From Desulfonatronum lacustre DSM 10312 (GTDB lineage: Bacteria > Desulfobacterota > Desulfovibrionia > Desulfovibrionales > Desulfonatronaceae): 64,000 bases of DNA. Positions 3,338 through 57,271 of this stretch are shown here, in pieces. The translations under genes were made by a program, and so were the position numbers. Numbering within the stretch: the first letter of the stretch is position 1; every line of letters starts with the position of its first letter. The stretch lies in NCBI RefSeq assembly GCF_000519265.1, contig NZ_KI912608.1:757665-821664 (forward strand), given 5' to 3'. A model generated the notes under the pieces. That model was given only the letters and a program-made list of their open reading frames with translations, searched no databases and was not told the origin of the DNA.

Positions 3338-3432
3338 GATCGAAACATCGAAATCGAAATCGCTATCGAAATCGGAAAGTTGCCAGAAATCGATTTTGGT
3401 CACGATTTCGATTCCGATTTCGATAACGATCC
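3338..3432. repeat. Hexamer-unit hairpin repeat H1
   Basis: Runs of six-base units of the form GAAATC on the left are answered by GATTTC units on the right, so the whole can fold into a long degenerate hairpin. It lies in the gap between the SDR gene and the ATP-grasp gene. It is closely related to H3 (19181-19259), including the shared flank GATCC(A/G)GAGCGCC. Five more members occur in the window. Confidence 0.8.
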
Positions 3433-17615: not shown

Positions 17616-20672
<3,057 letters not shown>

Positions 20673-21723: not shown

Positions 21724-21906
21724 CTACTCAGCATATTTTGTATCCGCCCTTGCTCCGGCAATCGGAGTCGGGGTCGCTATCGGAATCGGAATCGGAACAG
21801 GAAAAATTTTGAACGCTTCCCAGCGTTTTCGATCCCGATCCCGACTCCGACCTCGACTCCGACCCCGACTCCGACCCCGGCAACAGCATTACTCTATGCT
21901 GAATAG
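21724..21906. repeat. Hexamer-unit hairpin repeat H4 with terminal inverted repeats
   Basis: A 183-base element ending in CTACTCAGCAT / ATGCTGAATAG. The interior carries GGAATC/GGAGTC-type hexamers answered by GATCCC/GACTCC-type hexamers. It is an inverted relative of H2, matching it from tip to tip but with more hexamers in one arm, which points to slippage of the units. It occupies most of the gap between holB and feoA. Confidence 0.85.
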
Positions 21907-27349: not shown

Positions 27350-27515
27350 GACGTTCGTCGTTCGTTGTGCTCCGCTCCTCGTTCTTTGTTGGGAGTGTCG
27401 CGGAGGATCGGGCTTTGCGCCACTTTTTTCCTTGAGAGCAAAAGATGGGTCAGCAAAGTGCAACCGGTGACAGCAAGGAACGTCGAACCAAGAACCAAAA
27501 ACCAAGAACCAAAAC
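27350..27515. repeat. Modular intergenic repeat R2 (heptamer family)
   Basis: Left arm GTTCGTCGTTCGTTGT and CGTTCTTTGTTGGG (27353-27393), right arm of AACCAAGAACC-type units (27476-27515). The right arm stops 1 base before the ATG of the next gene. Confidence 0.75.
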
Positions 27516-31539: not shown

Positions 31540-31747
31540 GCTGAAGCCTGAGGGATGAGACCTGAGACTGGGTGGCGGATGTTCTTCGTTCGTTGTTCTT
31601 CGTTGGAGGATGACGCGCGGAGAAAGGGGGCTTTATGCCCCTATTTGCCTGAAAGCGAAAGGCGGGTCAGCACGGAGCAACGAGCGAACAGCAACGAACG
31701 AAGAACGAAGAACCACGAACGTCAAACAAAGAGCAGACGGAGAATAC
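31540..31747. repeat. Modular intergenic repeat R3 (heptamer family)
   Basis: Contains the GAGGGATGAGACCTGAGACT module (31550-31569), a left arm GTTCTTCGTTCGTTGTTCTT (31579-31605) and a right arm of AACGAACGAAGAACGAAGAA type (31692-31735). The right arm ends about 10 bases before the ATG of the next small gene. Confidence 0.78.
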
Positions 31748-31748
31748 C

Positions 31749-31901
31749 ATGATCGACTTGGATAAAGCGCGTCAGGAGTACGCGGAACGGCGACAGGAGT
31801 TGATTCGGATGCGGGAGCGGTGGATTGATGAGATGCGGGATTTCTCGGTGTTTCTTCGGGATAGGGCTGAGAGAGAAAGCAGTGAGAAAGCCGACGAATA
31901 A
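31749..31901 (+). CDS. Small charged helical protein (50 aa)
   Basis: A 50-residue frame beginning MIDLDKARQEYAERRQELIR and ending in SEKADE, entirely charged and helical with likely coiled-coil character. It starts directly after repeat R3 and ends 2 bases before the convergent hybrid-kinase stop codon, so it fills the space exactly. No homologue is recognised. GGAG stands 8 bases before the ATG, which supports translation. Confidence 0.5.
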   Translation: MIDLDKARQEYAERRQELIRMRERWIDEMRDFSVFLRDRAERESSEKADE

Positions 31902-31903
31902 TC

Positions 31904-34348
31904 TCAGATCCTGGCTTCGACCAGGAGCTTGTTGAGCAGTCTCCTGATTTGCTGGATGGTATAGGGTTTGGCTATCGAGCCGACAAAGCCGTATTCTTGA
32001 AAATTGGCCATCACCGGGTCGCTGGAATAGCCGCTGGAGGCCACGACCTTGGCGGCGGGGTCGAGTTTGAGGATTTCCCGGACCGCCTCCTTGCCGCCCA
32101 TGCCGCCGGGGATGGTCAGGTCCATGATCACGACGTCGAAAGGAAGCCCGTCAGCCATGGCCTGTTTGTACTGGGCCACGGCCTCCTCGCCGTTCTGGAC
32201 CGGAACGGCCGCATGGCCCAGGTGTTCCATCAGGTCCACGCTGATGTCGAGGACCATCACATCGTCGTCCATCACCAGGATGCGCCCTCCCGGATGGTCC
32301 GGATCAATCTCTTCGGTGGCGCGGGACGTCGGCAGAGCGGTGGGCACGGCTGGTAAAAAAACATGGAACGTCGTTCCCTGATCGGGCGCGGATTCCACCG
32401 TAACGACGCCGCCGTGGCGTTTGATGATGGAATAACTTGAAGCCAGACCGAGCCCCGAACCGTGGTCCTTGGTGGTGAAGTACGGATCGAATATCTTGGT
32501 CAGGTGTTCCGGCGAGATGCCGTGTCCCTGGTCGGTCACGGAAATCCGCGTGAACGGTCCGGAATTGCTGATGGCTTCAGGGAGATTTGGGCCGTCGATA
32601 TTGCCTCCGGTCAGGGTGACCACGCCGCCTTGGGGCATGGCATGGTGGGCGTTGATCACTAAATTGTGGACCACCCGGCTGACTTGGTCCGGATCGGCGT
32701 GGACGGGCCAAAGGTCGCCGGGAAGATCAAAAACGCATTTGGCGTTGGTCCCGCTCAGGGCGAACTCGGCCGACTCCCTCACCAATTCAGCCAGGGGCAA
32801 AATATCTTTGACGGGTGTGCCGCCCTTGGCAAAGGTCAGCATCTGTTGAGTCAGGGCCTTGCCTCGGTAGGTGGCTCTTTCGGCCTCGCTGAGTTTGTGC
32901 TCGGCTTTGTCCGCATCGGTCAGGGAGAGCTTGGCTGAGGTAATGTTTCCCAGGATCGCGGTCAGAATGTTGTTGAAGTCGTGGGCGATGCTTCCGGCCA
33001 GAATTCCCAGGGATTCAAGTTTTTCGGCTTTAAGGGCTTCGTCCAGGAGGCGCTGCTTTTCGGTCTCGTCCCGGAAGGCCAACACCACGCCGATCATCCG
33101 GCTTTCCTTGTCCCTGAGCGGAGCCGCGTTGGTCGCGATGAGCCGGTGCTTTCCGTCCTTGGAAGCAAGGCGGCTGGTGCCGTCCAACTGGCGAATGATC
33201 CCGTTCGCCAAGACCAAGCGGATCATATTCTCGGCTTCCTCGAAACGCTCATTCCGGAGCTGGAACACTTCGGACAAGAGACGCCCCCGGGCTTCATCCT
33301 GAGACCAGCCGGTCAATTCCTCGGCGGTCTTGTTCAAAAACAGTACCTTCTTTTCCGTGTCCGCCGCGATCACTCCGTCGCCGATGGATCGCAGAATCAC
33401 GGCCAACCGCTCCGAGGCCAATTCCGCCACCTCGGCCATGCGGTGCGCCTCCATTCTGTTGTTCTCAGCCTGGGCCAGGGCGCTTCTCAAATTGGCGACC
33501 ATTTCAGTGATGGCCTGCATCAATCGCCGCGCTTCTCCGTAAAAGCGCCCGGTGACTTTGGCGTTGAGGTCTCCGGCGGAAACCTTGTCCGCATAATCGG
33601 CTAAAATGCCCAGGGATCTGGTGAACACGATGGAGGCGAGCAGGGCCGCGGGCAGGACGAGAAGCAGAATGAACAGCGAAAACGTGATCACCTCCACGCG
33701 CAAGACGCGCATTTCGGCCTGAATGTCGTCGATGTACAGGCCGGTGCCCAGAATCCAACCCCAGGGCTCGAAGAGCAGCGCATAGGAGACCTTGGGATAC
33801 CATGCTTCTTCGGCCATGCCTTCGGAATGCGGCCTGGGCCACATATAGGTCACGAAGCCGTCTCTGGTCTGCGTGACAACCTCGACAATCGCCCAGGTGA
33901 TGTTCTTTTCACGGGCAAAATTCTGTATCGGGCCGTTCACGCCGTACTGGATGCGTGTGACGCAATAGTACAGAGGGTTGTCCGGCAAAGCGTCTTCCAG
34001 TTCCGAGATAAAGGGATGCATGATAAGTCGGAGGTCGAGCGCATCATTACTTCTGATCCAAAGATAACCGTCCCGTCCGTAGCGAATGTGCCTGAGCCGT
34101 TCTTTGGCGCGATTCTGAGCCTCTTCCAGGGTCAATTCTCCGACCCGGACTCGTTGCTGATATTCGCCGAGCAGGGAGTGGACCGAACGCGCGACGTGCA
34201 TCAGTGCTTCCTTCCTGCCGTGCAGCAGCCGCTCTTGCATCAAGGGCAGGAAATAGAACAGAATCATCCCGCAAAAGACGAGAACGAGCGCCAGGATCAG
34301 CCCGAAGGTCTTGGCGGGGATGGACAGGTTCAGGAGTTTGGTGAGCAT
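31904..34348 (-). CDS. Hybrid sensor kinase: Cache-HAMP-PAS-HisKA-HATPase-REC (copy A)
   Basis: 814 residues. Membrane segment near residues 10-35, a periplasmic single-Cache domain (GRDGYLWI, LLFEPWGWILGTGLYIDDI), second membrane segment near 205-230, HAMP, PAS (IGDGVIAADTEKKVLFLNKT), HisKA with H456 in IAHDFNN, HATPase (GSGLGLASSYSIIKRHGG) and a receiver with D743 in VIMDLTIPGG. The ATG at 34348 gives the same length as its paralogue (35822-38266), which begins alike; an upstream TTG is rejected. Its ligand region differs strongly from the paralogue while the receiver is nearly identical. Confidence 0.9.
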   Translation of the reverse strand: MLTKLLNLSIPAKTFGLILALVLVFCGMILFYFLPLMQERLLHGRKEALMHVARSVHSLLGEYQQRVRVGELTLEEAQNRAKERLRHIRYGRDGYLWIRSNDALDLRLIMHPFISELEDALPDNPLYYCVTRIQYGVNGPIQNFAREKNITWAIVEVVTQTRDGFVTYMWPRPHSEGMAEEAWYPKVSYALLFEPWGWILGTGLYIDDIQAEMRVLRVEVITFSLFILLLVLPAALLASIVFTRSLGILADYADKVSAGDLNAKVTGRFYGEARRLMQAITEMVANLRSALAQAENNRMEAHRMAEVAELASERLAVILRSIGDGVIAADTEKKVLFLNKTAEELTGWSQDEARGRLLSEVFQLRNERFEEAENMIRLVLANGIIRQLDGTSRLASKDGKHRLIATNAAPLRDKESRMIGVVLAFRDETEKQRLLDEALKAEKLESLGILAGSIAHDFNNILTAILGNITSAKLSLTDADKAEHKLSEAERATYRGKALTQQMLTFAKGGTPVKDILPLAELVRESAEFALSGTNAKCVFDLPGDLWPVHADPDQVSRVVHNLVINAHHAMPQGGVVTLTGGNIDGPNLPEAISNSGPFTRISVTDQGHGISPEHLTKIFDPYFTTKDHGSGLGLASSYSIIKRHGGVVTVESAPDQGTTFHVFLPAVPTALPTSRATEEIDPDHPGGRILVMDDDVMVLDISVDLMEHLGHAAVPVQNGEEAVAQYKQAMADGLPFDVVIMDLTIPGGMGGKEAVREILKLDPAAKVVASSGYSSDPVMANFQEYGFVGSIAKPYTIQQIRRLLNKLLVEARI

Positions 34349-34401
34349 GGAGTGTCTGAGATTCGGGGAGGCGGAATCCGGGTTCAAAGGGGTAACGGCA
34401 T

Positions 34402-34500
34402 TAATCGGAATTGCAATCGAAACAAGCCTGTTGGCATCGTGTTTTGGGACAAGTTTGTTTATGGCCGATTTCGATTGCGATTGCGATTTCGATACGGATG
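34402..34500. repeat. Hexamer-unit hairpin repeat H5
   Basis: AATCGGAATTGCAATCGAAA on the left faces GATTTCGATTGCGATTGCGA on the right. It lies between the kinase start and the broken XRE-PAS gene, and is the most degenerate member of the hexamer family. Confidence 0.7.
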
Positions 34501-34528
34501 CGCGGCACCCGGACCAGGCCCTGGACCA

Positions 34529-35407
34529 TCAAGCCGACTCCAGAAAATTTTTTGCCCAGCTTATGGCTTGATTCTGGACTTTCGCGGCCAGTTGCCGCCT
34601 GATGGCAAGTGTATTCAGGATTGCCTCGGCTTGAGACCAGTTTCCGCTTTCGGAAGCAAGCGCAAGGTCCAGCCAGGCTTTGCAGTTCCGGGTCGTCGCC
34701 CAGCAGGGCTCGATATTTTTCCTCGCTCGTTCGTAACGCCTTCTCCATCCATTTACGTTCGCTGATGTCCATGGCCATGCCAATGAGCACGGGGGAGCCC
34801 GACCCATCCGTGGTCAAGTGAGCCTGATCGTGCATCCAGCGCCATGTCCCGTCCTTTGCTTGGATCCGATACTCCAGGTCGATGGGATGTCTTTGCATGG
34901 CGGACTCAATGGCCGCGTCAACCTTGGCGGCGTCTTCTGGATGGATGGAGCGGTTCCAGAGCATGGGGGCGTTCATCAGTTCCCCCGCGAGGTCTTCCGT
35001 TCGGGAAAGCCGAACGGGCACCGCAAGACCTCTGACCATGTTTCCCGGCCCGTTGCGAAGTTGAAGCCCCATGTGCCGACCCCGGCAACAAGGTGAACAT
35101 CGGCACTGCGGAAGGACAAAGCGGTCGATCGTTCCTCCGTGTCCGCTGCCAGGTTTTTCGATCCGCTTCCCGGCGACAGGGAAAAATTAGCCACCTCCGT
35201 CCCCAGGGCTTCAGCAGTCTTGACCAGTAGCTCAACGGAGGGATATCCGCAGCCTCTCTCGATCAACCCGACGTGCTGCGCCGTCACGCCCAGACGCATG
35301 GCCAGTTGCTCTCGATTCATGTTGTTCAGCAGACGAAAGAACCTCAGTCGCTCCCCGACCACGCATTCCGTGGTGCCTCTCTCGTTTTTTGATGCCAAAT
35401 ATGTCAT
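34529..35407 (-). pseudogene. Frameshifted XRE-HTH/PAS regulator
   Basis: Coding signal continues across three frames. Frame one (35407 to about 35010) gives an XRE helix-turn-helix (NREQLAMRLGVTAQHVGLIE) and the start of a PAS domain (GTWGFNFATGRETWSEVL). Frame two (to about 34685) continues the PAS domain (SIHPEDAAKVDAAIESAMQR, WRWMHDQAHLTTDGSGSPVL). Frame three ends with a natural-looking tail (AWLDLALASESGNWSQAEAI). Two frameshifts, near 35010-35050 and 34680-34690, break it. The intact relative is the XRE-PAS gene at 38276-39805, in the same position relative to its kinase. Confidence 0.75.
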
Positions 35408-35721
35408 ACTATGCTGAAAGTGAAGCCCGGAGCAAGAAACTTAGATATTTTTTTGCTGTGATTCTCACTGCATGGAAACGCGATATGTTTCAATTTATCC
35501 GGCTTATTCTCTATTTTTTAACGCGATTCTCGCAAAAAAACACAACCACAAAAGCGGCTGTTTTTCCTTTGGCCGTGCGTTCCCGGAGGTGAAGACGGAT
35601 TTCTGCTCATCCATGCTCAATCCTTCCACATGGTCCTTCAGTGGGCACGATTTCTCTTCATTTTGATTAGTTATGGATGATCAGGTCGAACGAGATGTTC
35701 TCCCGAGCTCAGCTTGATATT
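35408..35721. other. Intergenic region without recognised features
   Basis: AT-rich stretch of 314 bases upstream of the broken XRE-PAS gene. It should contain the promoter of that leftward unit, but I see no convincing -35/-10 pair, no conserved gene and no repeat. Confidence 0.5.
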
Positions 35722-35814
35722 CCGAGGATTTGATTTTCCGGTTGTGACGGGCCGGTATCCACAAGGCGGCGATGCATACCGTGACCACCACCCCGGAACC
35801 GGGTCGTGCTGGCA
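35722..35814 (+). pseudogene. Amidohydrolase gene fragment
   Basis: About 93 bases are roughly 90% identical to 40426-40517 inside the amidohydrolase gene at 40314. In frame it reads EDLIFRL, then a stop (CGA changed to TGA), then IHKAA; a one-base insertion follows. It stops 7 bases before the stop codon of the second kinase. It is a dead remnant that marks the border of a tandem duplication. Confidence 0.85.
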
Positions 35815-35821
35815 ATCAAAA

Positions 35822-38266
35822 TTAGCTCACGGACGGAACCAGGAGCTTGTTGAGCAGTCTCCTGATTTGCTGGATGGTATAGGGTTTGGCTATCGAGCCG
35901 ACAAAGCCGAATTCTTGAAAATTGGCCATCACCGGGTCGCTGGAATAGCCGCTGGAGGCCACGACCTTGGCGGCGGGGTCGAGTTTGAGGATTTCCCGGA
36001 CCGCCTCCTTGCCGCCCATGCCGCCGGGGATGGTCAGGTCCATGATCACGACGTCGAAAGGAAGCCCGTCAGCCATGGCCTGTTTGTACCGGGCCACGGC
36101 CTCCTCGCCGTTCTGGACCGGAACGGCCGCATGGCCCAGGTGTTCCATCAGGTCCACGCTGATGTCGAGGACCATCACATCGTCGTCCATCATCAATACG
36201 CGTCCCTTCTCGGGGACCGACTCATCCTTTTCGGCTTGGCGAGGTGTGGGGGATGCGGTGGGAACGGCGGGCAGATAAACATGGAACGTCGTGCCTTGTC
36301 CGGGCACGGATTCCACCGTGATGACGCCTCCGTGTCGCTTGATGATGGAATAGCTTGAAGCCAGGCCGAGCCCGGAGCCGTGGGTTTTGGTTGTGAAATA
36401 CGGATCGAAAATCCTGGTCAGGTGCTCCGGGGAGATGCCGTGTCCCTGGTCGGTCACGGAAAGACGCGTGAACGGTCCGGAATCGAGGATGGCCTCCGGG
36501 AGTTTTGGGGCGTCGATATTCGCCCCGGTCAGGGTGACAAGGCCGCCTTGGGGCATGGCATGGTGGGCGTTGAGGGCCAGGTTGTGGATCACCCGGCTGA
36601 TTTGGTCCGGATCGGCGTGGACGGACCAGAGATCGTCGGGAAGTTGGAAAACGCATTTGGCGCTGGTTCCACGCAGGGCGAATTCTGCCGACTCTCGCGC
36701 CAGCTCGCCCAGGGGCAGGATTTCCCGGACGGGAGTGCCGCCCTTGGCAAAGGTCAACATTTGTTGGGTCAGGCCCTTGCCTCGGTAGGTGGCGCTTTCA
36801 GCCTCGCGGAGCTTGCGTTCGGCCTTGTCCGGTTCGGCCAGGGACAGCCGGGCCGAGGTGATGTTGCCCAGGATCGCGGTCAGGGTGTTGTTGAAGTCGT
36901 GGGCGATACCTCCGGCCAAAATCCCCAGAGACTCCAGCTTTTCGGCCTTGAGAGCCTCGTCCAGAAGTCGTTGCTTCTCGGTTTCGTCCCGGAAGGCGAG
37001 CACCACGCCGATCACCCGGCTTTCCTTGTCTCTGATCGGGGCCGCGTTGGATGCGACGAGCCGGAGCTTTCCGTCCCTGGAGACAAGGTGGCCGGTACCG
37101 CCCAACTGGAGTACGATCCCCTTTTCCAAGAGTTGACGAACCAGAACATCGACCTGTCCGAAACGATCATCCCGCATCTGGAGCACTTCGGACAGGGGCA
37201 GCCCATGGGCCTCATCCTGGGACCAGCCGGTCAGTTCCTCGGCGGCCTTGTTCAGAAACAGCACCTTCCCCCCGGTGTCCGCGGCGATAACCCCATCGCC
37301 GATGGATCGCAGAATCACGGCCAATCGCTCCGAGGCCAGTTCCGCCGCCTCGGCCAACCGCTGCGCCTCCATCCTGCTGTTTTCGGCCTGGGCCAGGGCG
37401 CTTTTTAGATTGCCAACCATTTCGGTAATGGCCTGCATCAACCGCCGCGCTTCACCGTAAAAGCGCCCGGTGACTCCGGCGTTGAGGTCTCCGGCGGAGA
37501 CCTTGTCCGCATAATCGGCTAAAACGCCCAGGGACTTGGTGAACACGATGGAGGCAAGCAAGGCCGCGGGTAGGACAAGAAACAGGATAATCAGCGAAAA
37601 CGTGACCATCTCCACGCGCAAAACGCGCATTTCGGCCTCAATGTCGTCGATGTACAGGCCGGTGCCCAGAATCCAGCCCCAAGGTTCAAAGAGCAACAAA
37701 TAGGATTCCTTGGGGTGCCTCTCCGCGTTGATGCTCGTTTGATGCGGCTTTGGCCAGTTGTAGGCCACGAAGCCATCTCCGGTCGTTTGGACGACCTCGG
37801 TAAAGATCAACAGTAAATTGGCCATGGTTCCCGGAAGCAGCTTCACCGACCCTTGAAAGCCGTACTCCATGCGCATGACCTCGGCGGTCAGAGGGGCGTC
37901 CTGTTCCGTGCCGTCCAGGTCCGGAATGGTCGGATGCATCAGCAGGCGCGGCATGGATGCGGCGTTGTCGCTGATCCAGAGATAATCACCCCGTCCGTAG
38001 CGCATATGCTTGATCCGTCTCTTGGCGCGCTCCTGGGCCTCATCCAGGGTCAATTCTCCGGCCCGGACTCGTTGTTGATATTCGTCAAGCAGGGAGTGGG
38101 CCGAACGCGCGACGTGCATCAGCGCTTCCTTCCTGCCGTACAGCAGCCGCTCTTGCATCAAGGGCAGGAAATAGAACAGAATCATCGCGCAAAAAACCAG
38201 GACGAGCGCCAGGATCAGCCCGAAGGTCTTGGCGGGGATGGACAGGTTCATGAATTTGATGAACAT
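35822..38266 (-). CDS. Hybrid sensor kinase: Cache-HAMP-PAS-HisKA-HATPase-REC (copy B)
   Basis: 814 residues, the same domain order and length as copy A (31904-34348), with H456 and D743 at identical positions. The periplasmic Cache domain differs (residues ~110-190: LLMHPTIPDLDGTEQDAPLT in place of LIMHPFISELEDALPDNPLY), suggesting another ligand. The last 354 bases, coding for the receiver, differ from copy A at only two positions. It starts 9 bases after the XRE-PAS gene, so the two form an operon. Confidence 0.92.
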   Translation of the reverse strand: MFIKFMNLSIPAKTFGLILALVLVFCAMILFYFLPLMQERLLYGRKEALMHVARSAHSLLDEYQQRVRAGELTLDEAQERAKRRIKHMRYGRGDYLWISDNAASMPRLLMHPTIPDLDGTEQDAPLTAEVMRMEYGFQGSVKLLPGTMANLLLIFTEVVQTTGDGFVAYNWPKPHQTSINAERHPKESYLLLFEPWGWILGTGLYIDDIEAEMRVLRVEMVTFSLIILFLVLPAALLASIVFTKSLGVLADYADKVSAGDLNAGVTGRFYGEARRLMQAITEMVGNLKSALAQAENSRMEAQRLAEAAELASERLAVILRSIGDGVIAADTGGKVLFLNKAAEELTGWSQDEAHGLPLSEVLQMRDDRFGQVDVLVRQLLEKGIVLQLGGTGHLVSRDGKLRLVASNAAPIRDKESRVIGVVLAFRDETEKQRLLDEALKAEKLESLGILAGGIAHDFNNTLTAILGNITSARLSLAEPDKAERKLREAESATYRGKGLTQQMLTFAKGGTPVREILPLGELARESAEFALRGTSAKCVFQLPDDLWSVHADPDQISRVIHNLALNAHHAMPQGGLVTLTGANIDAPKLPEAILDSGPFTRLSVTDQGHGISPEHLTRIFDPYFTTKTHGSGLGLASSYSIIKRHGGVITVESVPGQGTTFHVYLPAVPTASPTPRQAEKDESVPEKGRVLMMDDDVMVLDISVDLMEHLGHAAVPVQNGEEAVARYKQAMADGLPFDVVIMDLTIPGGMGGKEAVREILKLDPAAKVVASSGYSSDPVMANFQEFGFVGSIAKPYTIQQIRRLLNKLLVPSVS

Positions 38267-38275
38267 CGGTTGCCT

Positions 38276-39805
38276 TTATTCCAGCTTGGCCGCGGTCTGC
38301 TTCAATTCCGTCACGTTCATGAGCATGACCAGGGCGCCATCGTACTCGCCTGCGTCCGTGAACAACGGTGCGGCGGAAATCATCACCCAAATGATTTGAC
38401 CGTTTTTATGAATGATGCTGGCTGGAAAGCGCACACTGTGGCCCGCCCGGTTCTGCTCCGCGAAAAATTGGATACGTCCGGTTTCTTCAGGGGCAATAAA
38501 GTCCAGGGCCGAGCCCCCCAGCAGTTCCGCCGCGGAGCGTCCTCCAAGCTTTTGTATCCGGGCATTGGCGAACATGATCCGTAAGTGCCGGTCCAACCGT
38601 AATACGCCCTCATTTGCTGTTTCCAAGATTAGTCGATGCTGTTCCTCGCTTTGACGAAGCCGTTCCTGGGCCGCCATGACCGCCGTCAGGTCGTGGAGCG
38701 TGACGATAACGCCGAGTATTTCTTTGTTTTTTAGGCAAGGAGTAAGAAATACCCGCATATATCGTCGTCCTAGCCTTCCATAGCTGAACCATCCTTCCTT
38801 GATCTTCGCTTGCCCGTGGGTTTGAGCTTTCTCCATATCAGGTAGAATGGCTCGATCAAAAAAATCACGTCCCCAGCGTTCGATCAACATATCGTTATAC
38901 AGCCGTCCCTCAAGCTTCCTCAAGGAGATACCCGCAAGTCGGGCATACGCGGGATTGACCTTTTTTACCAAGCCGGACCTGTCCACGAATATCTGAGCGT
39001 CCAGAGAACCGGCGATCATCAGATCGGATATTCGCAAACCTTGTTCGGCCTTATTTCGTTCAAGAATCTCTTGTTGCAACCTTTCCACGGTCAGGGCCAG
39101 TTCCTTGTTCCGCTCCAGCATGTACGTTTCCTGTTGTCTCTGGTTGTGTACAAAAGAGCGGTGCAGGGAGATGCAGTCCGTCACTTCCCGGACGGTCACC
39201 AGAAGGCCGTTTTCGTTATCCGTCTCGAAGCCCAAAGGCTCGGCCTGGACCATGATCATGCGCTGCACCGGACCTTTCCCGGTCAAGGGAACCAGGATGC
39301 CTCGTTCGTTCGGGTCCTGAGCGGAAGAGTGAATGAAGGATTCGACCGCCGCCCTGTCCATGGAACGTACATGCTTGAGAAACCGCTTTAGGGTTGGTTT
39401 GACGGAAAAGGGGCGGTAGCCCAGCAAGGTGTACAAGGAAGCGGACCATGTTCCGTGCCTGGAAGAAGAGGGAAGGAACCATGCTCCGATTCTGGTGGAA
39501 ATGATCTCGTTGTTAGAGATGGCTGCTGTTGGCTCCTGGATGGATGCGGGAGGAAGTTCGGAACAGTTCTGAGGCGGGGAGGGGTCATGAAAGAGAAATA
39601 AGGTTACTGGGGCGATATCCAAAGCCCGGCAAAGTTTTTCCAGGAGAGCGAAGGAGGGAGTTGAGAGGCCGCGCTCGATGCGGCTGATTTGTTTCAGGCT
39701 CAAGCCGACCTTTTCCGCTAATCCGGATTGGGTCAAACGCTGCAGAGAGCGATAATATCGAAGCCGCTCACCGAACCGTCTGGCTACCGATAAGTCTTCA
39801 TTCAT
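38276..39805 (-). CDS. XRE-family regulator with PAS domains
   Basis: 509 residues. N-terminal XRE helix-turn-helix (LTQSGLAEKVGLSLKQISRI ERG), a PAS-like domain near 105-220 (GAWFLPSSSRHGTWSASLYT), a coiled coil near 230-265, a second PAS (DRSGLVKKVNPAYARLAGIS) and a third (RLILETANEGVLRLDRHLRI). It probably senses a small molecule and controls nearby genes, feeding or paralleling the kinase encoded 9 bases downstream. The ATG at 39805 follows GAGGAG and overlaps a 46-residue gene by 8 bases. Confidence 0.85.
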   Translation of the reverse strand: MNEDLSVARRFGERLRYYRSLQRLTQSGLAEKVGLSLKQISRIERGLSTPSFALLEKLCRALDIAPVTLFLFHDPSPPQNCSELPPASIQEPTAAISNNEIISTRIGAWFLPSSSRHGTWSASLYTLLGYRPFSVKPTLKRFLKHVRSMDRAAVESFIHSSAQDPNERGILVPLTGKGPVQRMIMVQAEPLGFETDNENGLLVTVREVTDCISLHRSFVHNQRQQETYMLERNKELALTVERLQQEILERNKAEQGLRISDLMIAGSLDAQIFVDRSGLVKKVNPAYARLAGISLRKLEGRLYNDMLIERWGRDFFDRAILPDMEKAQTHGQAKIKEGWFSYGRLGRRYMRVFLTPCLKNKEILGVIVTLHDLTAVMAAQERLRQSEEQHRLILETANEGVLRLDRHLRIMFANARIQKLGGRSAAELLGGSALDFIAPEETGRIQFFAEQNRAGHSVRFPASIIHKNGQIIWVMISAAPLFTDAGEYDGALVMLMNVTELKQTAAKLE

Positions 39806-39938
39806 AGGACTCCTCTGCAAGGCGAACGAGGTCCGTCATCGTATGGGATGTCGCCCGGTTGTTCGGGAACCGTTTCGACGTTTCACGCCGATATAGCTCC
39901 GTAATCAATCGAAATTGATAGAGCTGTTCTTCATCCAT
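39798..39938 (-). CDS. Small protein (46 aa) coupled to the XRE-PAS gene
   Basis: A 46-residue frame, MDEEQLYQFRLITELYRRET to LVRLAEESYE, with an excellent ribosome site (GGAGG, 7 bases before ATG). Its end overlaps the start of the XRE-PAS gene by 8 bases, a classic translational-coupling arrangement. It is helical and charged; no family is recognised. It may be a leader peptide or a real small partner. Confidence 0.6.
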   Translation of the reverse strand: MDEEQLYQFRLITELYRRETSKRFPNNRATSHTMTDLVRLAEESYE

Positions 39939-40313
39939 TGCAACACCTCCTGCAACTCGTTGCCCACATCCTTGCGAGCAACCGCATCCCGAACACCTTT
40001 TTTGAACGGCTCAAGGTCGAAGGCAAATTGAAGAATTATGTCAGAAATCATTTATCTATCACATATGAACACAGTGTACAGCCCTGATAATGTCCAATTA
40101 TGATCATTTTTGGAAGGTGACATGAAAATCATGAGAGGGGCATCGGGGGGAAGGACGGACCGCGGTACGGCTGGAGGTGTTGGTTTTGGTTGACAATCAA
40201 TCCGTCTCTGGCCGAAAGACTTCCGCTTTTGGCGATCATTAGACAGCCCGCTTCTTTGAGCACAGCGGCTGTCTTGTCTTTCACGAAAAATTAGGCTTTG
40301 AAACCATCACGTA
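39939..40313. other. Divergent intergenic region
   Basis: 375 bases between the leftward XRE-PAS unit and the rightward amidohydrolase. It holds a hairpin GACAGCC...GGCTGTC (40243-40274) followed by TTGTCTTTC, possibly a terminator, and a short rightward open stretch near 39955-40085 (ILASNRIPNTFFERLKVEGK) without a start codon, which might be a gene remnant. Promoters are not evident. Confidence 0.4.
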
Positions 40314-41096
40314 ATGACCATGCATACCGACTGGCACACCCACGCCTTCCACCCCAAGATCGCTCACAAGGTTCTGGCCCAATTGCGCGGGCATTACGGG
40401 ATAGACCCCGTGGGCACGGGCTTGCCCGAGGATTTGATTTTCCGGTTGCGACGGGCTGGCATCCACAAGGCGGCGGTGCATACCGCGGCCACCACCCCGG
40501 ACCAGGTCGTGCCGGCGAACAACTGGTCCATGTTCATGCAGACCGAGCATCCCGAGTTGATCGCCTTTGGAACCCTGCATCCCGGGTTTATGAACTGGGA
40601 ACGGGAGTTGGTCCGCCTGGAAACGGCCGGAATCAAGGGCCTGAAGTTTCATCCGGATTTCCAGGGATTCCGGCTTGACGATCCGGTCCTGTATCCGCTT
40701 TTCGAGGCCATTGGCAACCGGTTCGCGCTCATGTTTCACGTCGGCGACCGGCTTCCTCCGGACCTGAATCCGTCCAGCCCGGCCAAACTGGCCAAAATCC
40801 GCCGCGATTTTCCGAAATTGACGATCATCGCGGCGCACTTCGGCGGCTATCTGCATTGGGACCAGGCCCTGGAGGTCCTGGCCGGGACCGACGTGTATCT
40901 GGACACCTCCAGTTCCTTGCCCTTTATGCCCCGGGATCTGATGCGCGGACTGCTGCGCAAGCATCCCAGGGAACGGCTGCTGTTCGGCAGCGACTATCCG
41001 CTGTTCGATCCCCTGGACGAGATCCGGCTTTTGGAAACCAATGCCGGACTGCGGGAGGAGGAGATTGAGGCGGTGTTGGGGAACGGAGTTTTTTGA
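40314..41096 (+). CDS. Amidohydrolase-2 family metal-dependent hydrolase
   Basis: 260-residue TIM-barrel hydrolase. Metal-binding HTHAFHP at the N-terminus, GIKGLKFHPDFQGF in the middle, IIAAHFGGYLHWDQ and the C-terminal LLFGSDYPLFDP match the amidohydrolase 2 (PF04909) family. Substrates in this family vary widely and cannot be read here. A decayed copy of its codons ~38-68 lies at 35722. No strong ribosome site precedes the ATG; ATG at 40320 is an alternative. Confidence 0.85.
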   Translation: MTMHTDWHTHAFHPKIAHKVLAQLRGHYGIDPVGTGLPEDLIFRLRRAGIHKAAVHTAATTPDQVVPANNWSMFMQTEHPELIAFGTLHPGFMNWERELVRLETAGIKGLKFHPDFQGFRLDDPVLYPLFEAIGNRFALMFHVGDRLPPDLNPSSPAKLAKIRRDFPKLTIIAAHFGGYLHWDQALEVLAGTDVYLDTSSSLPFMPRDLMRGLLRKHPRERLLFGSDYPLFDPLDEIRLLETNAGLREEEIEAVLGNGVF

Positions 41097-41150
41097 GGGC
41101 TGAGGGGGGAAGAGAGGGCTGAAGGATGAGACCTGAGATCTGAATGATGG
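41096..41150. repeat. CTGAGG/GATGAGACC module
   Basis: Degenerate units GGGCTGAGGGG, GGGCTGAAGGATGAGACC and TGAGATCTGA follow the amidohydrolase stop codon. The same module heads repeats R1, R3, R4 and R11. Confidence 0.6.
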
Positions 41151-41216
41151 GGAAGGCGTTCGTTGTTTGCTGGTGGGCGGGAAGGGAGAATTGTCTTGAT
41201 CCTCACCCACTATCTG

Positions 41217-41326
41217 GATCGAAATCGAAATCGTAATCGAAATCGAACGGCATGTCCAAAAAGATGATGTAATCACAGGGTGATGCACAGTAATTTTCGA
41301 TTTCAATCTCGATTTCGATTTCGATG
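41217..41326. repeat. Hexamer-unit hairpin repeat H6
   Basis: GATCGAAATCGAAATCGTAA on the left and CGATTTCGATTTCGATGA on the right enclose about 45 bases. A separate GC palindrome CCCCTCCTGCGAGGGG follows at 41371-41386. Confidence 0.8.
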
Positions 41327-41456
41327 AGAACAGATTTGCCTTGGAGAGGTGCCTTCGTTCTGGTGGAGATCCCCTCCTGCGAGGGGTAGGGGTGGGTTGG
41401 GGAAAGAGAGGGGGGCTGGGATTTGAAACTTGTGACCAATGGAGTTTTTGCTGGAT

Positions 41457-43667: not shown

Positions 43668-43912
43668 GTGGGCTGAGGGATGAGACCTGAGAACTGAGGG
43701 GGCGGTTGACGTTCTTGGTTTGTTGTTTTTCGTTCGTTGTTCTTGGTTCCTCGTCGAGGATTGGAGGGTGGGCGGAGGTTGAGGGGAAAGCTGAATCTCC
43801 ACGGAACCGCGGATCATTCCCCTCCTGGGAGGGGCCGGGGGTGGGTGACGGGTGGAAGGGGCTACCGATCCATGAACGAAGAACAAAGAACAACGAACAT
43901 TAAAAAATTCTG
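43668..43912. repeat. Modular intergenic repeat R4 (heptamer family)
   Basis: In order: GAGGGATGAGACCTGAGAAC module (43676-43695), left arm GTTTGTTGTTTTTCGTTCGT (43717-43751), GC palindrome CCCCTCCTGGGAGGGG (43820-43835), right arm GAACGAAGAACAAAGAACAA (43874-43898). It ends just before the Fur-like box at 43916. Confidence 0.8.
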
Positions 43913-44573: not shown

Positions 44574-44995
44574 TGCGCCCCTCCACGTCTCCCGCGAGCA
44601 GCCGTTCCCTACCTCCAAGCACGGCCTTCCACCCGGCGACCTTCCGTGACGACGATGACGGGCGGCAAGTGGTGCGTACCGTTGATTACCGGCAAATCTG
44701 TCATGCAGACTCCATCAACACTCCTTCCAAGTCGGTACGCGACACACGACCGGCGCTCCAACACTCCCGCACCGAAACAAAACAGCGATCCTCCAGGCGT
44801 TGTTTCACGGCAGCGGGAATGGACGGGGCGTCGGTCGTGCCGGTCGGTCTGTCCCCCCCAAGGGGGGGAGATGTTATTCCGTTCGTTGTTCTTCGTTCTT
44901 GGTTGTTGGTTTGCGGTAGTGCTTGGACATTGCCGGACTGCACTGCCAGCCTGGCAGTGGCGGATTTCCGGAGCAAGCCGTGCAACCGGCGGTAA
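44573..44995 (+). CDS. Doubtful open frame coupled to the upstream gene
   Basis: Starts TGATG-overlapped with the preceding gene and has a good GAGGAGG site, but the 140-residue product is Ser/Arg/Pro-rich, and its later part (PFVVLRSWLLV) is simply the translation of repeat R5. The first ~60 residues (DDDGRQVVRTVDYRQICHAD) could be a short real protein extended by the repeat. Confidence 0.25.
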   Translation: MRPSTSPASSRSLPPSTAFHPATFRDDDDGRQVVRTVDYRQICHADSINTPSKSVRDTRPALQHSRTETKQRSSRRCFTAAGMDGASVVPVGLSPPRGGDVIPFVVLRSWLLVCGSAWTLPDCTASLAVADFRSKPCNRR

Positions 44996-45048
44996 TCCAA
45001 CTGCTCGCGCAAGAAAACGAAGAACGAAGAACAACGAACGAAAAAACA
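44878..45048. repeat. Modular intergenic repeat R5 (heptamer family)
   Basis: Left arm CGTTCGTTGTTCTTCGTTCT (44880-44910) and right arm ACGAAGAACGAAGAACAACG (45016-45040). The sequence between them contains a shorter GCACTGCCAG / CTGGCAGTG hairpin (44941-44960). Confidence 0.75.
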
Positions 45049-45274
45049 CATTCGAGGAGGTGATGCCGAACAAGAAAAACGCTTCCCCTGTCGCGGCGAG
45101 GGGCCGGAAGGGGAGAGTTGGTGGGGAGGATTTGAATACGTCAGGGATGACGTAGGCGGGGGTTCTCCTCATCGGCTGTGTGTATCGGAATTGTTGGTCT
45201 TTTGTTTCGCGGTAGACTCTGGGGGTGAGTTGCTGCTCCATTCAAACCCTCATTTTTTATACGGAGTTAATCTC

Positions 45275-46516: not shown

Positions 46517-46967
46517 GTTGTTTCGTTCTTGGTTCGTCGTTGGAAAGCCAACCTACCCCTGGCCCCTCCAGGGAGGGGATAAAGGGATGGTTGAGGGATT
46601 ACAGATGCACATCATCCAGGGGAGGCAACCCGGAGTCCATATCCGGAAAAATCTCATTGATGGCGGACAACGTGGCAAGCGTACCCAGCAACCCTTTTGT
46701 CCTGACCGGCTCGATGATCAGCCGATCACCCTCACGGCGGATGATGGCCGAGTCGGCATCCAGTTCAAACTCCTTGGGAATGCGAATGGCTTGGCAGCAG
46801 CCACTGCGAAAAATACGAACATGACGCGCCATATTCATGCAGATCCCTCCTTTCGTCGTCAGCATGTATTCTGCCTAGATCGGCCGGGAGATGTGCGTCA
46901 AGAACGAAGAACGACGAACGAAGAATAGCGGCGTAGCCGCAAAACGAAGAACGACGAACAAATTTAC
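46517..46967. repeat. Modular intergenic repeat R6 enclosing an antitoxin gene
   Basis: Left arm GTTTCGTTCTTGGTTCGTCG (46520-46541), GC palindrome CCCCTGGCCCCTCCAGGG (46557-46574), then the antitoxin gene, then the right arm AAGAACGAAGAACGACGAAC (46901-46920), GCGGCGTAGCCGC (46930-46942) and a further right-arm segment that ends 6 bases before the next gene's ATG. Confidence 0.75.
46599..46838 (-). CDS. AbrB/MazE-type (VapB-like) antitoxin, orphan
   Basis: 79 residues with the swapped-hairpin AbrB DNA-binding fold: ARHVRIFRSGCCQAIRIPKE and IIRREGDRLIIEPV. It resembles VagC/VapB antitoxins. The start at 46838 follows GGAGGG. No toxin frame follows downstream within the repeat, so it is an orphan or a remnant of a module inserted between the two prepilin genes, antisense to the cluster. 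Confidence 0.8.
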   Translation of the reverse strand: MNMARHVRIFRSGCCQAIRIPKEFELDADSAIIRREGDRLIIEPVRTKGLLGTLATLSAINEIFPDMDSGLPPLDDVHL

Positions 46968-53232: not shown

Positions 53233-53440
53233 AGAGATGTTGTTTTGTTCTTTGTTCTTGGTTCTTCGTTTGCGGAAGATGTTGTTTTGTTCGTCGTTCG
53301 TTGTTCTTCGTTAAAATGCCAACCACCCCTGGCCCCTCCAGGGGAGGGGAATGGTCGGCGGTTTCGAGGATATTCAGCTTGACGCTCCAACCTCCGAAAT
53401 CTCGTGGAAACCAAGAACGAAGAACGACGAACCGACAACA
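53233..53440. repeat. Modular intergenic repeat R7 (heptamer family)
   Basis: Two left-arm runs (GTTGTTTTGTTCTTTGTTCT at 53236; GTTTTGTTCGTCGTTCGTTG at 53284), GC palindrome CCCCTGGCCCCTCCAGGGG (53327-53345), then right arm AACCAAGAACGAAGAACGAC (53408-53427). It separates the secretin gene from the antisense antitoxin gene. Confidence 0.8.
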
Positions 53441-57120: not shown

Positions 57121-57271
57121 ATGTTGTTTCGTTCGTCGTTCTTTGTTCTTTGTTGGAGTAGCGAGCTTTCTTTTTGCTGTCGTGCGCTGATTTGAATCAA
57201 GAACGAAGAACAAAGAACGAAGAACAGCGGCGTAGCCGCCAACGAAGAACGACGAACAAAGAACGAGAAAA
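57120..57271. repeat. Modular intergenic repeat R9 (heptamer family)
   Basis: Left arm GTTGTTTCGTTCGTCGTTCT (57122-57141 and on to 57156), right arm AAGAACGAAGAACAAAGAAC (57199-57218 and on), centre GCGGCGTAGCCGC (57227-57239), then ACGAAGAACGACGAACAAAG. It spans the whole gap between the PilB and PilC genes; the last arm ends 5 bases before the ATG. Confidence 0.85.

Follow-up and report, generated by a model that had tools for sequence, protein, structure and literature searches.

The kinase locus of Desulfonatronum lacustre DSM 10312 carries two hybrid kinase genes in a row, and comparison with the same locus in congeneric genomes indicates that two haplotypes which are alternatives at this locus are combined in the window (the window is the whole 64,000-nt stretch that we analysed, contig NZ_KI912608.1 positions 757,665–821,664, from a genome that is a single contig of 3.76 Mb; positions below are those of the window unless a contig label is given). 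We consider it probable that a tandem-type event left two kinases in a row, that the genes in the middle of the first unit (unit A) then decayed, and that the two kinases exchanged segments.

In Desulfonatronum the kinase locus is flanked by flavodoxin on one side and by a GGDEF/HD-GYP pair on the other, and the gene order and strands given for 31904–41096 in the initial annotation were confirmed. The native left flank is a 50-aa ORF (31749–31901, + strand) which is also found beside the single kinase of three congeners (G002, G003 and G006), and this is followed by hybrid kinase A (31904–34387, − strand, with a likely start ATG at 34348), a region of broken genes, hybrid kinase B (35822–38266, − strand), an intact 514-aa XRE-PAS regulator referred to here as XRE-PAS B (38276–39820, − strand), and an intact amidohydrolase (Amidohydro_2; 40314–41096, + strand). 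Kinases A and B share the same architecture of an sCache_2-like sensor, PAS, HisKA/HATPase_c and receiver, with sCache_2, PAS, HATPase_c and Response_reg above the Pfam cut-off in both. It should be noted that HisKA falls slightly under the cut-off (24.4 and 23.8 vs 26.9), with the H-box AHDFNN found there, and that the H-box, the N- and G-box regions and the receiver Asp motif are all retained on inspection of the alignment by eye. On these domain predictions, both proteins qualify as hybrid histidine kinases with sensor, HisKA, HATPase_c and receiver in one polypeptide. XRE-PAS B lies upstream of kinase B, ending 9 nt before the kinase start, and the two genes are probably co-transcribed, while kinase A, its neighbours lost, may be an orphan.

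The junction between the two units can be recognised in the sequence. Direct copies of both ends of the segment are present, as kinase A is a collinear tandem homologue of kinase B (83.6% nucleotide identity over 2448 aligned positions) and a fragment composed only of interior codons of the amidohydrolase (35722–35819, + strand) matches 40426–40522 of the intact gene (98 nt, 88.8% identity, E = 8e-25). The fragment begins and ends inside the amidohydrolase gene, and its right end abuts the kinase B stop codon (35822–35824), the tail of kinase B resembling that of G002 as far as GAGCT[A/G]A with the amidohydrolase sequence beginning right after. The fragment thus marks a seam, much as had been proposed earlier from a break inside the amidohydrolase and another just past the kinase. 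The outer flanks are native on both sides, with the 50-aa ORF beside kinase A and the intact amidohydrolase at the right-hand end, and only one kinase is found in each of G002, G003 and G006. Together with the native flanks and with relatives that have a single copy, the seam speaks for a tandem-type event, and no congener compared has both units with unrelated flanks, the finding that would have told against the earlier proposal (we note that the relatives are few, and that several are drafts or MAGs). The whole interval is not present in both copies, however, as the middle genes are unrelated at the DNA level. Besides the kinases and the amidohydrolase fragment, no strong direct repeat joins units A and B.

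The broken genes of unit A had been regarded as a second, degenerate copy of the intact XRE-PAS gene, and we rejected this identification. DNA similarity to XRE-PAS B is absent (the best chance match has E = 0.45), and at the protein level the two share 29% amino acid identity over 122 residues of the XRE/PAS N-terminus, far under the 84% of the kinases and the 89% of the fragment. The counterpart of this region is found in G006, where two intact genes, one HDOD/EAL and the other an 875-aa XRE-PAS3-HisKA-HATPase gene, precede the single kinase, and the alignments identify 34526–35636 as the deletion scar of this HDOD/EAL and XRE-PAS3-histidine kinase pair. The part at 34526–34710 (− strand), previously counted as XRE-PAS, is actually the 3' end of the HDOD/EAL gene (77% identity to G006), and is joined by a deletion of ~2.6 kb to a PAS piece of the XRE-PAS3-histidine kinase gene (34700–34989, − strand, 87%) at CCAGCAGGGCT, a short stretch which aligns to both sides. 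The XRE/PAS N-terminus of the same gene and its upstream region follow (34992–35636, − strand, 80%), with a deletion of 0.49 kb on the 3' side. Elsewhere in the window's genome the lost XRE-PAS-histidine kinase has only paralogues at ≤53% identity. We also sought the origin of the stretch between these fossil genes and the amidohydrolase fragment (35637–35721) in eight congeneric genomes, where only the part before 35637 was matched, in G006.

The order of genes differs amongst the relatives which share the left flank. Reading away from the left flank, the single kinase is followed in G002 by XRE-PAS B, MCP, CheW, the amidohydrolase, ABC transporter genes and GGDEF, in G003 by a ~93-nt remnant of XRE-PAS B and then MoxR and NadE genes, and in G006 by HDOD/EAL, XRE-PAS-HK and RR/HD-GYP genes. 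The kinase is missing from G004, the sister of G006, in which flavodoxin and GGDEF are ~470 nt apart, and G001, G005 and G007 gave no kinase match at the threshold used. A tree of the rpoB region placed the genomes as ((G006,G004),(G000,G002),(G007,(G005,G001))). The MCP and CheW genes (L021:4413–6885) and the ABC transporter genes (L021:8041–14857) of G002 are not found at the corresponding positions of the window (39952 and 41103–41454, respectively), between XRE-PAS B and the amidohydrolase and between the amidohydrolase and GGDEF, which makes the interval variable within the genus. The XRE-PAS B remnant of G003 (L009:3474–3567), with the unrelated genes that follow, represents another loss of a kinase partner. 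We also observed an apparent frameshift near codon 30 of the single G006 kinase (L022:10772–13250), whose N-terminus requires two frames, and this is either real or a sequencing error.

The kinases themselves are mosaics, and in 90-nt windows kinase A switches its closest partner along its length. We scored all 15 topologies for each segment of kinases A and B and the kinases of G002, G003 and G006. The N-terminus groups kinase A with kinase B (by 18 lnL), and the Cache segment groups kinase A with G002 to the exclusion of kinase B, G003 and G006 (topologies lacking this pair are at least 124 lnL worse), such that the Cache core of kinase A (33793–34090, − strand) is of the type common to G002 and that of kinase B (37711–38008, − strand) of the type common to G003 and G006. 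The histidine-kinase core of kinase A (32373–33093, − strand) groups with G006 (91–97% identity in 90-nt windows; trees lacking the pair are ~92 lnL worse), and for the receiver the best tree pairs kinases A and B, with the second-best topology, kinase B plus G003, not rejected. The receiver tracts of kinase A (31920–32274, − strand) and kinase B (35838–36192, − strand) have 2 differences in 355 columns, and a best 340-nt window with 2 differences compares with never fewer than 31 in 2000 shuffles. Third-codon identity between the two kinases is 0.99 in the receiver against 0.52–0.91 elsewhere, the Cache core being the most divergent part (0.52). These alignments demonstrate recent gene conversion between kinases A and B in the receiver tract, and the segment trees demonstrate that kinase segments have been exchanged between lineages. 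The G006 flank beside the kinase resembles those of G002 and G003 (0.82–0.85), unlike that of the sister genome G004 (0.50), which suggests that G006 may be a recipient. Other Cache genes in the genus are only 41–50% identical to either Cache core, and hence no recent internal donor is seen. An outgroup for the kinases was sought in 297 genomes of the order, where the best relatives other than the congener loci are ≤48% identical and mostly cover the PAS-HK-REC half only, and searches of the open literature found no direct precedent for gene conversion between sensor kinases.

The order of events that we infer starts from the alternative single-kinase haplotypes of the genus, α (kinase, HDOD/EAL and XRE-PAS-HK, as in G006) and β (kinase, XRE-PAS B and amidohydrolase, as in G002). 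In the lineage of the window, a tandem-type joining event would have fused the interior of the amidohydrolase to the kinase stop codon and left two kinases in a row. The differing middle genes imply either that two haplotypes were joined in this event or that the first copy later had its middle replaced, so that α and β copies may have been joined directly, or the β unit may have been duplicated and the middle of its first copy then replaced by α DNA. Deletions would later have eroded unit A's middle genes, and segments swapped between the kinases left near-identical receiver domains with differing Cache sensors. The joining event accounts for neither the left end of the amidohydrolase fragment nor 35637–35721, and both count against it.

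An alternative is that both units were adjacent in the common ancestor, with unit A then lost in G002 and G003 and unit B in G006 through recombination between the kinases. Each relative does retain one of the two contexts, and the repeated kinases would favour such loop-outs, but we think it unlikely, as the cores of kinase A and the G006 kinase are too alike for vertical descent. Third-codon identity in the histidine-kinase core is 0.92, compared with 0.63 for rpoB, 0.63 for GGDEF and 0.59 for flavodoxin in the same two genomes, so that the exchange of this core postdates the split of the window and G006 lineages. Furthermore, the amidohydrolase fragment is nearer to the window's own gene than to that of G002, siding with the former at seven sites and the latter at one, although when the seven sites were polarised with G005 as outgroup one was a shared derived change, three were changes in G002 and three were unreadable. 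The fragment has eight changes of its own in ~98 nt, which is less than the 20–23% by which the window genome and G002 differ at third codon positions, and the comparison leans towards a seam event that postdates the window/G002 split, albeit as a weak date.

Two further explanations fare less well than the tandem-type joining event. A single crossover in the resident kinase could have inserted a foreign molecule carrying a kinase, HDOD/EAL and XRE-PAS-HK genes, duplicating the kinase and bringing the fragment along; this would explain the foreign middle genes and both hybrid kinases at once and agrees with the G006-like core of kinase A, but is quite improbable as the insert must by coincidence have carried a piece of the gene adjoining the locus, and nothing else of a donor, whether genes or plasmid parts, is left between the kinases. 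In the reading favoured in the initial annotation, kinase, XRE-PAS and amidohydrolase were simply copied together in tandem and the first copy then decayed. This reading agrees with where the seam lies, with the order of the genes, with native flanks on the outside and with single-copy relatives, but such copying of a three-gene unit is refuted for the middle gene, where DNA similarity is lacking despite that of the kinases and fragment and the fossil is 77–87% identical to two G006 genes, and with the differing middle genes each single-copy in G006 or G002 and the kinases showing conversion and exchange, we regard it as very improbable.

Both Cache domains are closest to those of PscD and Adeh_3718 (PDB 5g4y and 4k08), and the single Cache carboxylate sensors PscD, McpP and Adeh_3718 are their closest solved relatives. 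PscD contacts its ligand through Tyr90, Trp92, His103, Phe126, Tyr143, Trp145 and Lys156 (PMC5062169), and six of these seven residues align and are identical in both kinases. Phe126, at the back wall of the pocket, falls in a region that is divergent and unaligned in kinases A and B. These known sensors sit in chemoreceptors, whereas the Cache domains here are in kinases. Our best guess is that kinases A and B both sense small carboxylates, tuned differently but sharing one output, in which case they would feed the same phosphorelay, and XRE-PAS B would be their sole remaining partner regulator.

There are partial parallels for this arrangement. The Campylobacter jejuni Cache chemoreceptor paralogues Tlp2, Tlp3 and Tlp4 have identical signalling domains with Cache sensors of ~30% identity, and are subject to duplication and pseudogene formation (PMC9769880). 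Kinases A and B similarly pair like signalling parts with divergent Cache sensors, but are adjacent hybrid kinases with sCache_2-like sensors rather than dCache_1 chemoreceptors, and they show a duplication seam that can still be read as well as exchange across species. Myxobacterial two-component genes evolve by duplication, lateral transfer, indels and input-domain shuffling (PMC4603909), and the same processes are seen here, although in place of the gain or loss of whole domains the sensor has been swapped inside one gene between conserved arms. We suggest tentatively that the locus could be a sensor-exchange site, in which homologous recombination swaps a Cache core of ~300 nt both between copies and across species, with the N-terminal transmembrane segment as one arm and HAMP/PAS/kinase as the other, and if so, the type of sensor would be uncoupled from the remaining kinase and from the partner genes. 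The processes are already known and the locus is a well-resolved new example of them, showing how a second sensor can be gained without a second output when a gene is duplicated, its signalling half is kept alike by conversion and its sensor core diverges, with the breakpoints still legible in the sequence. It also shows that a degenerate gene next to one copy of a duplicated gene is not necessarily a duplicate of the gene next to the other.

Finally, we note two types of short repeats. Intergenic 7-nt repeats (GAACGAA/AACGAAG type) occur in both orientations, often at gene ends, at 31579–31735, 43706–43907 and 44872–45050, with further sites at 27485–27514, 46900–46925, 53244–53270 and 57199–57226. 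Related repeats occupy the G004 gap where the kinase block is missing as well as the ends of two G002 contigs, and this suggests that they may mark breakpoints. Hexamer repeats (ATCGAA/CGATTT and similar) are found at 3347–3430, 19222–19256, 21760–21879, 34466–34493 and 41218–41325, with one array in an extra ~140 nt upstream of kinase A, and the arms at 41218–41247 and 41296–41325 are 90% complementary.
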